From: Patiria pectinifera
Taxonomy: Eukaryota > Echinodermata > Asteroidea > Valvatida > Asterinidae
DNA length: 64,000 nt
Direction of reading: 5' to 3'
NCBI GenBank assembly: GCA_029964075.1
Contig: CM057141.1
Span: 1,364,001 to 1,428,000 of the forward strand
The notes beneath the pieces are model-generated. The model searched no databases. It worked only from the letters and a program-made list of their open reading frames with translations, and was not told the origin of the DNA. Shown in pieces: positions 2,946 to 8,417 of this stretch; position 1 is the stretch's first letter, and the number at the start of each line of letters is the position of its first letter. The position numbers and the translations under genes are program-made.

Positions 2946-3285
2946 GCAGGGTTCCCAGGAAGAGCAGTGTCCTGTGTTGATGCTGATGGGTCTACGCACT
3001 TAAGACGTGCCTATGCCCTGGCCGATAGAAAAGGGGAGAATATAAGAAAAAAGAGGAAAAAAGAAAAAGAAGCTAGAAAAAAAGAAGAAGAAAACGTGCA
3101 AGAATGAAAAGAAAACAGAACACATTGACAAAAAATAAGAAAAAAAAGAAAGAAGGAAAAATGAAAAGAAAAAAAAAATCCAAAGAAAAAAACAAGATGC
3201 TGAGAAAAGATGACAATGGCAAAGAAGAACAGAAAGATGAAGGAGGAAGGACAAAAGAAACAGCAACAGTCAGCATGTTCTTCAT
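2791..3285. repeat. Purine-rich low-complexity tract, interrupted by module 1 copy A
   Basis: Long runs of AAAGAAAG/AAGAGG type on the + strand. They produce spurious Lys/Arg-rich (+) and Phe/Ser-rich (-) reading frames and are not coding. Confidence 0.8.
2946..3021 (+). ncRNA. Structured repeat module 1, copy A
   Basis: First of nine copies. Predicted fold: P1 GCAGGGT/ACCCTGC (here closed with a G-U pair and one terminal mismatch), CCCA/TGGG, P2 CAGTGTC.../..GATGCTG and P3 GCAC/GTGC with a 7-nt loop. Flanked on both sides by purine-rich tracts. Family and function unknown; ncRNA is a working label. Confidence 0.45.
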
Positions 3286-3366
3286 TTCAGGTTTGTCTAC
3301 TTACATTCTGTTGTTTGATTGTCTGTGTATTGTTTGTTTGTCTTCAGATCTGTTTGTTTGTCGTCA

Positions 3367-3444
3367 GCAGGGTTCCCAGGAAGAGCAGTGTCATAATTGT
3401 TGATGCTGATGGGTCTACGCACTTAAGACGTGCCTATACCCTGC
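3367..3444 (+). ncRNA. Structured repeat module 1, copy B (reference copy)
   Basis: Best-preserved copy, with copy I. P1 is seven perfect pairs (GCAGGGT/ACCCTGC); CCCA pairs with TGGG; P2 is CAGTGTCA/TGATGCTG around a 7-nt loop; P3 is GCAC/GTGC around TTAAGAC. Preceded by a TTTGTTTG-rich pyrimidine tract and CAG, which looks like a 3' splice site. One frame reads VDADGSTHLRRAYTL, but other copies do not keep it. Confidence 0.5.
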
Positions 3445-3783
3445 AGTAGGGCCTAGATAGGTAGTTAAGACAATTTCTTGTTAAGTCATTTACAAGTTCA
3501 CTGTCTTAGTCCGGCCACAAGAAATATTAGGGGGTGACGAATGATAAACTAATTGATGCTTTTGTCTGAATTTACTTGGATAACTTGTTTCTTGAGACCG
3601 ATGACAAATGCAAGATGAGTTAAAACACACTTTAATGAGTCGAGGATTCAGGCAAATTAGTTTGGGGGGAATGGAGGAAAATATCAGAAAAACAGGAAGA
3701 ATTTAATGAGAATTACACAACATGTGCTGAGGTGGCAAATCTATGAATGTCTATCTGGTTTTTGCATTTTTTTTTTCAGTGTG

Positions 3784-3857
3784 GCAGGGTTTCAAGAAAG
3801 AGCAGTGTCATGGGAGGATGCTGATGGGTCTATGCACTCAAGACGTCCCTATACCCT
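3784..3857 (+). ncRNA. Structured repeat module 1, copy C (diverged)
   Basis: Starts GCAGGGTTTCAAGAAAG; the CCCA/TGGG helix is replaced by TTCA/TGGG, still pairable with G-U. P3 is damaged (GCAC/GTCC). Preceded by a T-run and CAG. Confidence 0.4.
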
Positions 3858-3910
3858 TTTGAAAAATGTAAAAACAGACATTAAATTTGTAATTTGATTG
3901 GATGCACGGG

Positions 3911-3950
3911 TTGGCGGAGGTCCTCAAAAGTAGATGGGAGGGTGGATCTT
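3911..3950 (+). repeat. Hairpin module 2, copy 1
   Basis: AGGTCC...GGATCT pairing around a G-rich loop (GATGGGAGGGT). The first pair is A-T where other copies have T-A or G-C. Confidence 0.4.
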
Positions 3951-4523
3951 AATTTAATGATGGTGTAATAAGGATATATTAATGAAGTATAAAACTGTGT
4001 ATTTAAATGCATTTATGTTGTGTCAGTCCAAAGCTTGTTTACTTAGTGTTCAAAAATTTAAATTTTAAGTCAGATTTCAAATAAAATATAGTTTGACCTT
4101 TGACAAAGGTCACTAGATAGCAAGTGTTCTTAAAATATCATACAATGTATATTATTTTATATAGAAAGGGTGTGTCTGAATTAATTAGCTATACCATCAG
4201 CAGAAACAGGTGTCTGTGTGAAGTAAACATGGTCCTTTCCACAGGCGCATGTTTGCTTCATGTTGGAGCCAAGTAATGGGGTGCAGCTTAATGTTACAGA
4301 AAGGGTTACTGCATCTACATCTTGAGTCATATGGGATTCTTAAACAGTACATGAATGTGCAGTTATCTATTTGGGCCTTAGGTAAGTATATAATCACTTT
4401 GTTTGTCTAAAAGTTTACTTGTTTGTGTCTACTTGCAGTTTGTACACATTCTGTTTTAAAGTGTTATAGGCCTATGTATTTGTTTGTCCGTATATTTGTC
4501 TGTTGTTTGTTTGTTAGTTGTAA

Positions 4524-4599
4524 GCAGGGTTCCCAGGAAGAGCAGTATCATATTTGTTGATGCTGATGGGTCTACGCACTAGAGGTGCCTATACCCTGC
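4524..4599 (+). ncRNA. Structured repeat module 1, copy D
   Basis: P2 reads CAGTATCA/TGATGCTG, converting a G-U pair to A-U; the P3 loop is shortened to TAGAG while GCAC/GTGC is kept. Same extended flank as copies B and I (GCAGTATAGGGCCTA). Confidence 0.45.
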
Positions 4600-4667
4600 A
4601 GTATAGGGCCTATGTAGGTAGTTGAACCATGAATATTTGTTATGCATTAATTTACATGTAATTGAGC

Positions 4668-4801
4668 AATCACAGGCAAATCACAAGTCAATCACAAGTC
4701 AATCACAAGTCAATCACAAGTCAATCATAAGTCAATCACAAGTCAATCACAAGTCAATCACCAGTCAATCACAAGTCAATCACAAGTCAATCACAAGTCA
4801 G
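4668..4801. repeat. 11-bp minisatellite (AATCACAAGTC)n
   Basis: About 12 near-perfect copies of AATCACAAGTC. The same unit recurs inverted in the dynein intron at 34659-35130. The 68-codon ORF across it is an artefact of the 33-bp coding period. Confidence 0.95.
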
Positions 4802-4953
4802 GTCATAAGAAATGGAAATGAACAATGACAAAAGAAGGGCTTTGTCAGAGTTCATTTGAGTTACTTGTTACATGACTTGAGACTGGATGACTAGTGATAT
4901 TCCTTGGATGACTTGACTACCTACAACTTATACGTTTACTCTGACCGGTAAAT

Positions 4954-6291: not shown

Positions 6292-6326
<35 letters not shown>
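6292..6326. repeat. (GA)n microsatellite
   Basis: About 17 GA dinucleotides just after module 1 copy G. Confidence 0.95.
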
Positions 6327-6329
<3 letters not shown>

Positions 6330-6922
6330 AAGGGAAAAAAGGATAAAAAACCCCTGAAACCCAACAACAAGCAGAACAAGAAGATGAGGAAAAAAGAACT
6401 GGGATTCTTAAACAAAGTAGGCCTACATGTATTTTAATTTGGCTAGTGGGTCATCAATGGAAGATTATTGGTAAGTATCATTGCAACCATAAAACATTAC
6501 AAACCACATGTTTGTATGTGAAGACTCAAGATCCAGCGATCTGTAGCCAACATTTCCCTTCCAGGGCTGTATGCACTTTGATGTAGTTTGTTTGTCTGTG
6601 TATTGTTTGTCTGTCTGTGTGTTTGTAGTTACTAGATTTCCAGCGTGTCTTTACCCTGCATTTAGGCCTGGAAATGTTCATTCGTAAATTTTTATTTCAA
6701 TTTTCATTTCATACATAACAACAGTAATTGTTAGGTGCTAGGGGCCGTATTTTTTACCAGATTTGTCGTAACTTCTTTTCTTAGGTTTAGAAGTCAGGTA
6801 CGCAATCGCATTCCTTCAGTACTTTTTGAAATGTGTAGTTTTCTGTCTCTAAATTTTGTTTGCCCTTCTGTTTGTCCGTTTGTCTAACTATTTGTTTTTG
6901 TCCGTTTGTGCGTCTGTAGTCA

Positions 6923-6997
6923 GCATGGGTACCCAGGAAGAGCAGCATCATATGGATGCTGATGGGTCTACGCACTTAAGAGGTGCCTATACCCTGC
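6923..6997 (+). ncRNA. Structured repeat module 1, copy H
   Basis: Key copy: P2 has changed to CAGCATC/GATGCTG, fully Watson-Crick and with a much shorter loop, while P1 carries a single bulged T (GCATGGGT). This is compensatory change. Followed by module 2 at 7032. Confidence 0.5.
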
Positions 6998-7031
6998 AGT
7001 AGGGCCTAGGTGGCTGGCTTTCCTTCATGAA

Positions 7032-7084
7032 ATGGATGGATGGTTGGAGGTGGTCCTAAATAGTGGGTGGGAGGGCGGACCAGG
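7032..7084 (+). repeat. Hairpin module 2, copy 4
   Basis: TGGTCC/GGACCA pair exactly around TAAATAGTGGGTGGGAGGGC. Confidence 0.4.
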
Positions 7085-7474
7085 AATTTTCTTACAGGTT
7101 GTTAGGCTATGGTAAGTTTTTTAGTTATGTTACCTTGTTTGCTCGTTGATTGGTTGTATTTTTGTTCTTTGAGTTCTTAACACATAATTTCCCGGATTTT
7201 GGGGGGCACTAATGATTTGTTCGATATGGAATATTGAACATGTTTACTCTTCAGATTGAAAAACAGTGAAAGTATTTTGTACTTTGTTTTAAAATTTGTG
7301 AACTTTTCTAAATATGTCTTAATGTGTAGAATGCTAATGGTCTATATAATTTATGCCAGTGTGAATGGATGGTTCAAGTATATGAAGATATCTTTTGTCA
7401 AATTTGTACGTACGAGTGGTTCCTGTGCCATTGTTTATTTAAGTCACATCATATAAATAGGGTCTATTTATCCA

Positions 7475-7774
7475 ATGAATCGAGTTATCGAAGACATTTG
7501 TGCTGGTGATAGATGGGAAGAGACATTCAAACAAGATCCTAGCTTGAGAAAACTTGCTGAGACTCAAATACACAAGAGCAAATCAAGATTTAAAGGCAAG
7601 ATCAAGACAAGCTCGGACAAGGGCAGTAAGAAAGATGCAGAGTTGAAGACTTCAAAGGATCAAGTCAAGGAGTTCATCAAGAGTGGGAGATTGCAAGATC
7701 AAGAAAAATTATATAAGATCAAGACCATAGGGAAAGGCCTGGCAGAGACTTACTTTAAGAATTCTTTTTTTTAG
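7475..7774 (+). CDS. Hypothetical lysine-rich 99-aa ORF, possible terminal exon
   Basis: Translates to a charged, probably helical protein (KSKSRFKGKIKTSSDKGSKK in the middle; no signal peptide or membrane segment). I recognise no family. In favour: composition unlike the AT-rich surroundings, Lys/Asp/Glu-rich coding-like text, and AATAAA four bases after the stop, which would fit a last exon on the strand of the module array. Against: no paralog or partner exon is visible, and a 300-base ORF can be chance or a retroelement remnant. Confidence 0.35.
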   Translation: MNRVIEDICAGDRWEETFKQDPSLRKLAETQIHKSKSRFKGKIKTSSDKGSKKDAELKTSKDQVKEFIKSGRLQDQEKLYKIKTIGKGLAETYFKNSFF

Positions 7775-7996
7775 CAATAAATGTAATTTTTAGTTTTGAT
7801 CAACTTTGGTTGATTTTGCATATGTCTGATTGTGCATACATATCTGTCTGATTTTATGATTTTTTTTTTGTCTGCGTAATTTCATTTCAAAGTGTTTAAT
7901 CACACGATTGTCAAATAGTTGAGTGAAAACAATTTCAAAACATTAATCTGTGGATAAAAGTGCACATAAATTAGGTCGAGAATTTAAAAATAAAAC

Positions 7997-8049
7997 TGGA
8001 TGGATGGTTGGTTGGAGTGGTCCTTAAAAGGGGAGGGTGGGTGGACCAT
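7997..8049 (+). repeat. Hairpin module 2, copy 5
   Basis: TGGTCC/GGACCA around TTAAAAGGGGAGGGTGGGT; the order of G-runs differs from copies 3 and 4. No module 1 copy lies just upstream. Confidence 0.4.
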
Positions 8050-8339
8050 TGCTCTTTACGTTTTTATAATTTTAGTTGGTTGTCATTGTTTAGAAATCAA
8101 ATGAATGATTTTAATATGTGAAAACAATTCTTCAAAAATTCACAGAGTCAAGTGAAATAGAAAATTACACATATCTCTTTTCCTTCATTTCATTCAACAT
8201 GATTTTTCTTGACTCTTTTTAATAAGACAGGAATGTCAGGTAGGCAATTGCAGTCTGACAGTAGTGATTCCAAAATTTGTTTTCTTTGTTTTGTCCCTTT
8301 CTTTGTTTGTCTGTCCGTCTGTCTGTTTGTTAGTTGTAA

Positions 8340-8417
8340 GCAGGGTTCCCAGGAAGAGCAGTGTCATAATTGTTGATGCTGATGGGTCTACGCACTTAAG
8401 ACGTGCCTATACCCTGC
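8340..8417 (+). ncRNA. Structured repeat module 1, copy I
   Basis: Near-identical to copy B over the module and its flank (GCAGTAGGGCCTAGGTAG), though 5 kb away. Preceded by GTCTGTCTGTTTGTTAGTTG. Confidence 0.5.

Follow-up and report, generated by a model that had tools for sequence, protein, structure and literature searches.

The 64,000-nucleotide (nt) stretch of the starfish Patiria pectinifera analysed here (contig CM057141.1, positions 1,364,001 to 1,428,000, hereafter the window) carries, over positions 2946-8417, nine plus strand copies of a 75-78-nt module. Judged from the DNA, these copies form a real local array, tandemly duplicated and noncoding, whose module is either constrained or homogenised. 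The explanation that we tentatively prefer, and which we hold at somewhat short of even confidence, is that the array would correspond to a repeat-containing plus strand noncoding RNA, in which the modules would have been duplicated, kept by selection and used as a repeated working unit. The copies are listed below with their limits, which come from a covariance model and alignment, those of the relic being set by eye.

2946-3021, plus strand: module copy A, with purine-rich flanks
3367-3444, plus strand: module copy B, identical to I
3784-3859, plus strand: module copy C, diverged
4524-4599, plus strand: module copy D
5422-5497, plus strand: module copy E
5799-5874, plus strand: module copy F, degenerate
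6190-6267, plus strand: module copy G, with purine-rich flanks
6620-6660, plus strand: relic copy x, with both module ends, the interior deleted, and flanks as in B, D, H and I
6923-6997, plus strand: module copy H
8340-8417, plus strand: module copy I

The covariance model, built from the nine copies and run with its filters off over the 64 kb, recovers all nine with E-values from 5e-31 to 1.3e-16, scores that are high by construction. It finds no tenth full copy in the window, the next match having E = 1, which bears out the count of nine same-strand copies, with none elsewhere, given in an earlier note on this DNA; the relic near 6620-6660, too short for the model, is missed. Copy F is 59-73% identical to the other copies and is only partly recovered in some searches. 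Four of the eight start-to-start distances lie between 377 and 421 nt, the rest being 733 (with the relic in between), 740, 898 and 1417 nt. The earlier note had drawn the module as a three-way junction made of a terminal helix (P1), a CCCA/TGGG helix extended by P2, and a 3' hairpin (P3, GCAC/GTGC). Set against this drawing, the P2 loop shows indels of 2 and 4 nt, the P3 loop one of 2 nt, and P1 of copy H one of 1 nt. Since the P2 loop counts 7, 5 or 3 nt depending on the copy, no reading frame is kept, as had been stated, and tandem protein-coding exons are ruled out by these frame-breaking indels.

The origin of most copies by local tandem duplication is supported by the homology of their flanks, which is in register and which upholds the local amplification proposed earlier; for A and G we infer the same origin. 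The 130-nt flanks were aligned locally and compared with dinucleotide shuffles, a pass meaning that at most 4 of 200 shuffles reach the score. Of the 36 copy pairs, 17 pass for the left flank, the right flank or both; with 72 tests in all, one or two passes are expected by chance. On the left side, the strong passes are 7 of the 10 pairs formed by B, D, F, H and I; on the right side, they are 5 of the 6 formed by B, D, H and I and all three formed by C, E and H, these last partly through a shared second element, called mod2 and described below. Homology between the flanks of A and G was considered and rejected: the two agree at 78% over 193 columns including the module, yet do not rise above the dinucleotide shuffles.

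The module was then set against its own flanks in the 13 of these 17 pairs for which an anchored extension aligns 20 or more flank bases, pairs that share copies and hence are not independent. In eight of them (B-D, B-H, B-I, D-H, D-I, H-I, C-H and E-H) the module is more conserved than the flanks, with identities of 0.82-1.00 versus 0.63-0.84 and p from 0.04 to 2e-5; the B and I modules are identical at 77 of 77 positions, and their flanks at 81 of 99. Between the modules of A and G, and between either of them and those of B, D, E, H and I, identity is 90-96%. The pair A-G (0.96 versus 0.70, p = 5e-7) was left out of the count, its flank homology being unsupported, and the same applies to C-D (p = 0.07), C-F (0.2), C-I (0.03), D-F (0.8), E-F (0.5) and F-G (0.2); A-F was counted, though only its left flank passes (4 of 200 shuffles) and the aligned flank is the right side. 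This conservation of the module fits selection. The conserved stretch ends where the inverted repeat CAGGGT...ACCCTG ends, and three blocks inside it, GGAAGAG, TCTAC and CTAT, are invariant. Variation is concentrated in the apical loops of the two predicted hairpins, where 9 of 14 columns vary, versus 10 of the 65 other columns (Fisher p = 4e-4); in a sliding control, 7 of 79 positions, the true one among them, reach this signal; four of the seven lie away from the true position, and one of these four is higher.

In the scenario we propose, the array, which sits downstream of a dynein heavy-chain gene, would descend from an ancestral unit, a few hundred bases long, comprising a T/G-rich spacer, the 75-78-nt module, a further spacer and mod2. 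Several rounds of head-to-tail duplication, traced by the flanks for B, D, F, H and I and for C, E and H, would have produced the present copies, presumably including A and G. The spacers would have decayed. Purifying selection, perhaps aided by gene conversion, would have preserved the module in A, B, D, E, G, H and I, selection on A and G being deduced solely from the likeness of their modules; F and the relic would have decayed, and C in part. In a single long plus strand noncoding RNA, the modules would repeat one working unit, each folding on a terminal 7-bp helix with P2 and the 3' hairpin and offering the invariant GGAAGAG, TCTAC and CTAT to a putative binding partner, to which the number of copies would confer avidity. 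The copies are unlikely to be separate genes, because no upstream sequence common to all of them is seen by eye and a four-T run follows C only.

A series of results weighs against this reading, beginning with the conservation itself. In five of the 13 pairs (A-F, B-F, F-H, F-I and C-E) the module is not better kept than its flanks, so that the constraint announced in the earlier note is supported by the eight pairs above, the exceptions being C-E and the four pairs with F. The simplest reading of the latter is that copy F has lost constraint; the signal of copy C is mixed, its module being kept like the flank in the comparison with E and better than the flank in that with H. Gene conversion may contribute to the likeness of the modules, since those of B and I are identical despite differing flanks, an identity that fits conversion as well as selection. 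As to the shared origin, the left flank of A passes only weakly, with B, C, D and F, and the 130-nt flanks of G display homology with those of no other copy in the shuffle test.

The fold fares no better. Its stems do exist as complementary strings in the copies, and the structure stands out from partners slid by 1-3 columns, as it must, having been drawn from these sequences. Covariation is at chance: in the eight better copies, without F, 95.0% of the cells pair versus 94.9% with shuffled partners, the sole double change, at the terminal pair, is matched by 345 of 500 shuffles, and the inclusion of F leaves the result at chance (389 of 500). An alternative fold scores as well on pair counts and likewise stays at chance. 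The seven conserved copies show 14 distinct substitutions, of which four disrupt a pair, each time at the end of a helix; this is not a significant depletion (6.2 expected at random, P = 0.15), and the stem columns are not spared, 9 of the 14 falling in stems and 59 of 78 shifted stem patterns containing as few or fewer. RNAalifold, suggested earlier as a check, prefers other pairings, with a different 3' half for eight copies and another inner helix for nine, its covariation term amounting to -0.06 and +0.5 kcal/mol. The pairing said to be kept in P2 consists of one-sided changes from wobble to Watson-Crick pairs, which are not compensatory, and the TTCA/TGGG helix attributed to copy C demands a one-base register shift, the aligned C reading TCAA with one broken pair; this copy also breaks P3 (GCAC/GTCC). 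The claim of an RNA under structural constraint is thus not sustained by covariation, by the sparing of pairs or by that of stems; the points left in its favour, the coincidence of the conservation limit with the end of the inverted repeat and the clustering of variation in the hairpin loops, are weak.

Folded singly and compared with shuffles, the copies give z-scores of -0.08 (A), -2.45 (B), +1.04 (C), -2.35 (D), -1.10 (E), -2.87 (F), -1.24 (G), -2.00 (H) and -2.45 (I). On the plus strand, the three-way junction is the minimum-energy structure only in D and H; in B, E, G and I a pairing between AUGGGU and GCCUAU takes its place, A, C and F adopt other folds, and the stems are poorly formed in A, E and G. 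On the minus strand, six copies (B, D, E, G, H and I) have the junction (P1, CCCA/TGGG and GCAC/GTGC) as their minimum-energy fold, and in all of these but E its three helices are highly probable; P2 is weak there (0.32-0.55) except in H, and P1 forms poorly in A (0.08) and E (0.21). In copy F the stems form on neither strand. The junction, one of several possible folds, is therefore better defined on the minus strand, which ill suits a plus strand RNA. The non-Watson-Crick pairs in the conserved stems, few in number, are G-U on the plus strand and hence A-C on the minus, and therefore favour the plus strand. Over 2500-9100 the GC skew is 0.206 (G over C), whereas 160 overlapping segments of the same size (6.6 kb) to the right range from -0.053 to 0.055; it amounts to 0.203 with the elements masked and is positive in all eight inter-module spacers and after the last copy, the domain of strong skew being put at 2500-9500. 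Such a skew could mark plus strand transcription or merely reflect the make-up of the duplicated unit, and it is no proof of transcription, because the minus-strand-coded dynein region has no matching skew.

The second element, mod2, is G-rich, reads approximately GGATGGTTGGAGGTGGTCC...GGGTGGGAGGGTGGACCA and occurs in six same-strand copies between 3899 and 9064.

3899-3946, plus strand: mod2, starting 115 nt from the start of module C
4954-4990, plus strand: partial mod2, its end set by eye
5545-5593, plus strand: mod2, starting 123 nt from the start of module E
7033-7085, plus strand: mod2, starting 110 nt from the start of module H
7997-8049, plus strand: mod2, with no module just upstream
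9014-9064, plus strand: mod2, with no module just upstream, the last element of the array

In its GGTCC/GGACC stem 97.1% of the cells pair, and one pair occurs as UA, AU and GC; shuffles match the stem in 9 of 500 cases on four of five measures and in 247 of 500 on the fifth. This apparent covariation is a lead only, the stem having been chosen after looking, and two of the six copies, folded singly, are not better than shuffles (z of 0.48 and -0.47). That the whole would constitute a lineage-specific long noncoding RNA (lncRNA), combining the three-way-junction module with the G-rich mod2 hairpin, both under selection, in a G-skewed 6.6-kb domain, is a candidate interpretation that we consider doubtful.

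The same conservation could also act at the level of DNA. The modules would then be clusters of putative protein-binding sites, of the enhancer or insulator type, duplicated and selected, and the fold would be incidental. Such a cis-regulatory array accounts for conservation without covariation, for the invariant blocks that the fold leaves unpaired, for the missing reading frame and for a position 3' of the dynein gene, in which the final coding frame stops at 12132; taken alone, however, it leaves unexplained why conservation stops at the inverted repeat and why the hairpin-loop columns are the most variable, and we regard it as possible but on the unlikely side. The identity of the B and I modules between flanks that differ at 18 of 99 aligned positions, the tandem layout on one strand and the presence of a simple 11-base tandem array in the same locus (4667-4800) would all be expected of a functionless, satellite-like noncoding array homogenised by short-tract gene conversion. 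Conversion alone predicts neither sharp limits at the same two places amid unrelated flanks nor variation confined to two short segments, and this explanation seems to us improbable.

The module ends lend themselves to yet another origin, as CAGGG... resembles the ends of hAT-type transposons. A very small DNA-transposon remnant (miniature inverted-repeat transposable element, MITE) with CAGGGT/ACCCTG termini, inserted once or more and then duplicated, would explain the coincidence of the terminal inverted repeat with the conservation limits, as well as the flanks of A and G, unrelated or weakly related to those of the other copies. We judge it very improbable, for the flanks of B, D, F, H and I are homologous in register, the nine copies all lie on one strand with none other in the 64-kb window, and in eight of the nine copies the ends are not bordered, at a distance of up to 2 nt, by any exact direct repeat of 4-10 nt, E alone having TTGA. 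The lack of flanking direct repeats in these eight copies also led to the rejection of retroposition. The plus strand noncoding RNA thus remains the explanation that we prefer, at the tentative level stated at the outset.

The statement that no known family matches is supported as far as Rfam goes. At the gathering cut-off there is no match on the module, the only hits in the window being two transfer RNAs (tRNAs) outside the array; at E up to 5, 15 sub-threshold matches fall within 2900-9100, of which a single one overlaps a module (HOTAIRM1_3, minus strand, copy E, E = 4) and is unconvincing. The topologies of the hammerhead, hepatitis delta virus and other ribozymes, compared by eye, do not match, in agreement with Rfam. 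Exact-pattern scans gave no match in plasmid and genome contig sets and one 18-mer with different surroundings in viral contigs; these sets, by their descriptions, contain no animal genomes, and the outcome carries no information on relatives. Strings of the sequence looked up in the text of papers led to nothing relevant. No description of the module was found in those parts of the literature on urchin and echinoderm noncoding RNAs, repeats and hAT MITEs that were accessible, which is no proof of absence.

Several known systems nevertheless offer a likeness. Short conserved one-strand modules separated by poorly conserved low-complexity spacers recall lncRNAs of the Xist A-repeat type; here, in contrast, no sequence relation appears, the array is known from DNA alone and its modules are longer than the A-repeat core. 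Clusters of small nucleolar RNA or microRNA genes likewise repeat short conserved same-strand units over a few kb, but the present copies have no Rfam match at the gathering cut-off and, by eye, no C/D or H/ACA boxes and no long hairpin. The hAT-type MITEs share the short size and the CAGGG-type terminal inverted repeats, and differ by the target-site duplication, lacking here in eight of nine copies, and by the single strand and purely local distribution of the module.

If the array is transcribed, its roughly ten paralogous copies, of which some are preserved and others decay, would constitute a natural test of the requirements that a repeated RNA module must satisfy to remain functional; were it regulatory DNA, it would be a compact multi-copy element close to an axonemal dynein gene. 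In either case, the comparison of copies inside one locus can indicate constraint without a second genome, and a pairing that convinces by eye can fail a covariation test.

No coding sequence was found in the array among the eight chosen open frames scanned. The nearest recognised gene lies on the minus strand and encodes an axonemal dynein heavy chain similar to DNAH5; its C-terminal frame, which ends at 12132, matches Pfam Dynein_C (1.6e-41), and its best solved-structure match is axonemal heavy chain 5 (E 4.8e-58). At 7457-7774 on the plus strand lies a 105-codon open frame whose TAG is directly followed by CAATAAATG; it has no convincing Pfam or PDB match and is possibly the terminal exon of a gene on the strand of the array. 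The segment 5219-5364 consists of CAACTGGTTT-type units arranged as an imperfect palindrome with 80% self-complementarity; its several sub-threshold matches to microRNA families are probably due to chance through its hairpin shape. Arrays of the 11-base unit CAATCACAAGT occur at 4667-4800 and 34539-35114 on opposite strands, with relatives at 39133-39497.

Farther along the window, 50775-63999 on the plus strand holds five tandem receptor-gene units spaced by 2.1 to 4.8 kb, of which the two frames scanned are both rhodopsin-family. The two tRNAs, predicted with the support of Rfam, are tRNA-Gly(acc) at 43874-43947 and tRNA-Ala(ggc) at 50032-50104, both on the minus strand; these anticodons are unusual for animals, and the predictions may be tRNA-derived repeats. 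Lastly, the heptamer AGGCCTA, which like the tandem receptors would fit an echinoderm origin, occurs 10 times, versus about 3 expected.

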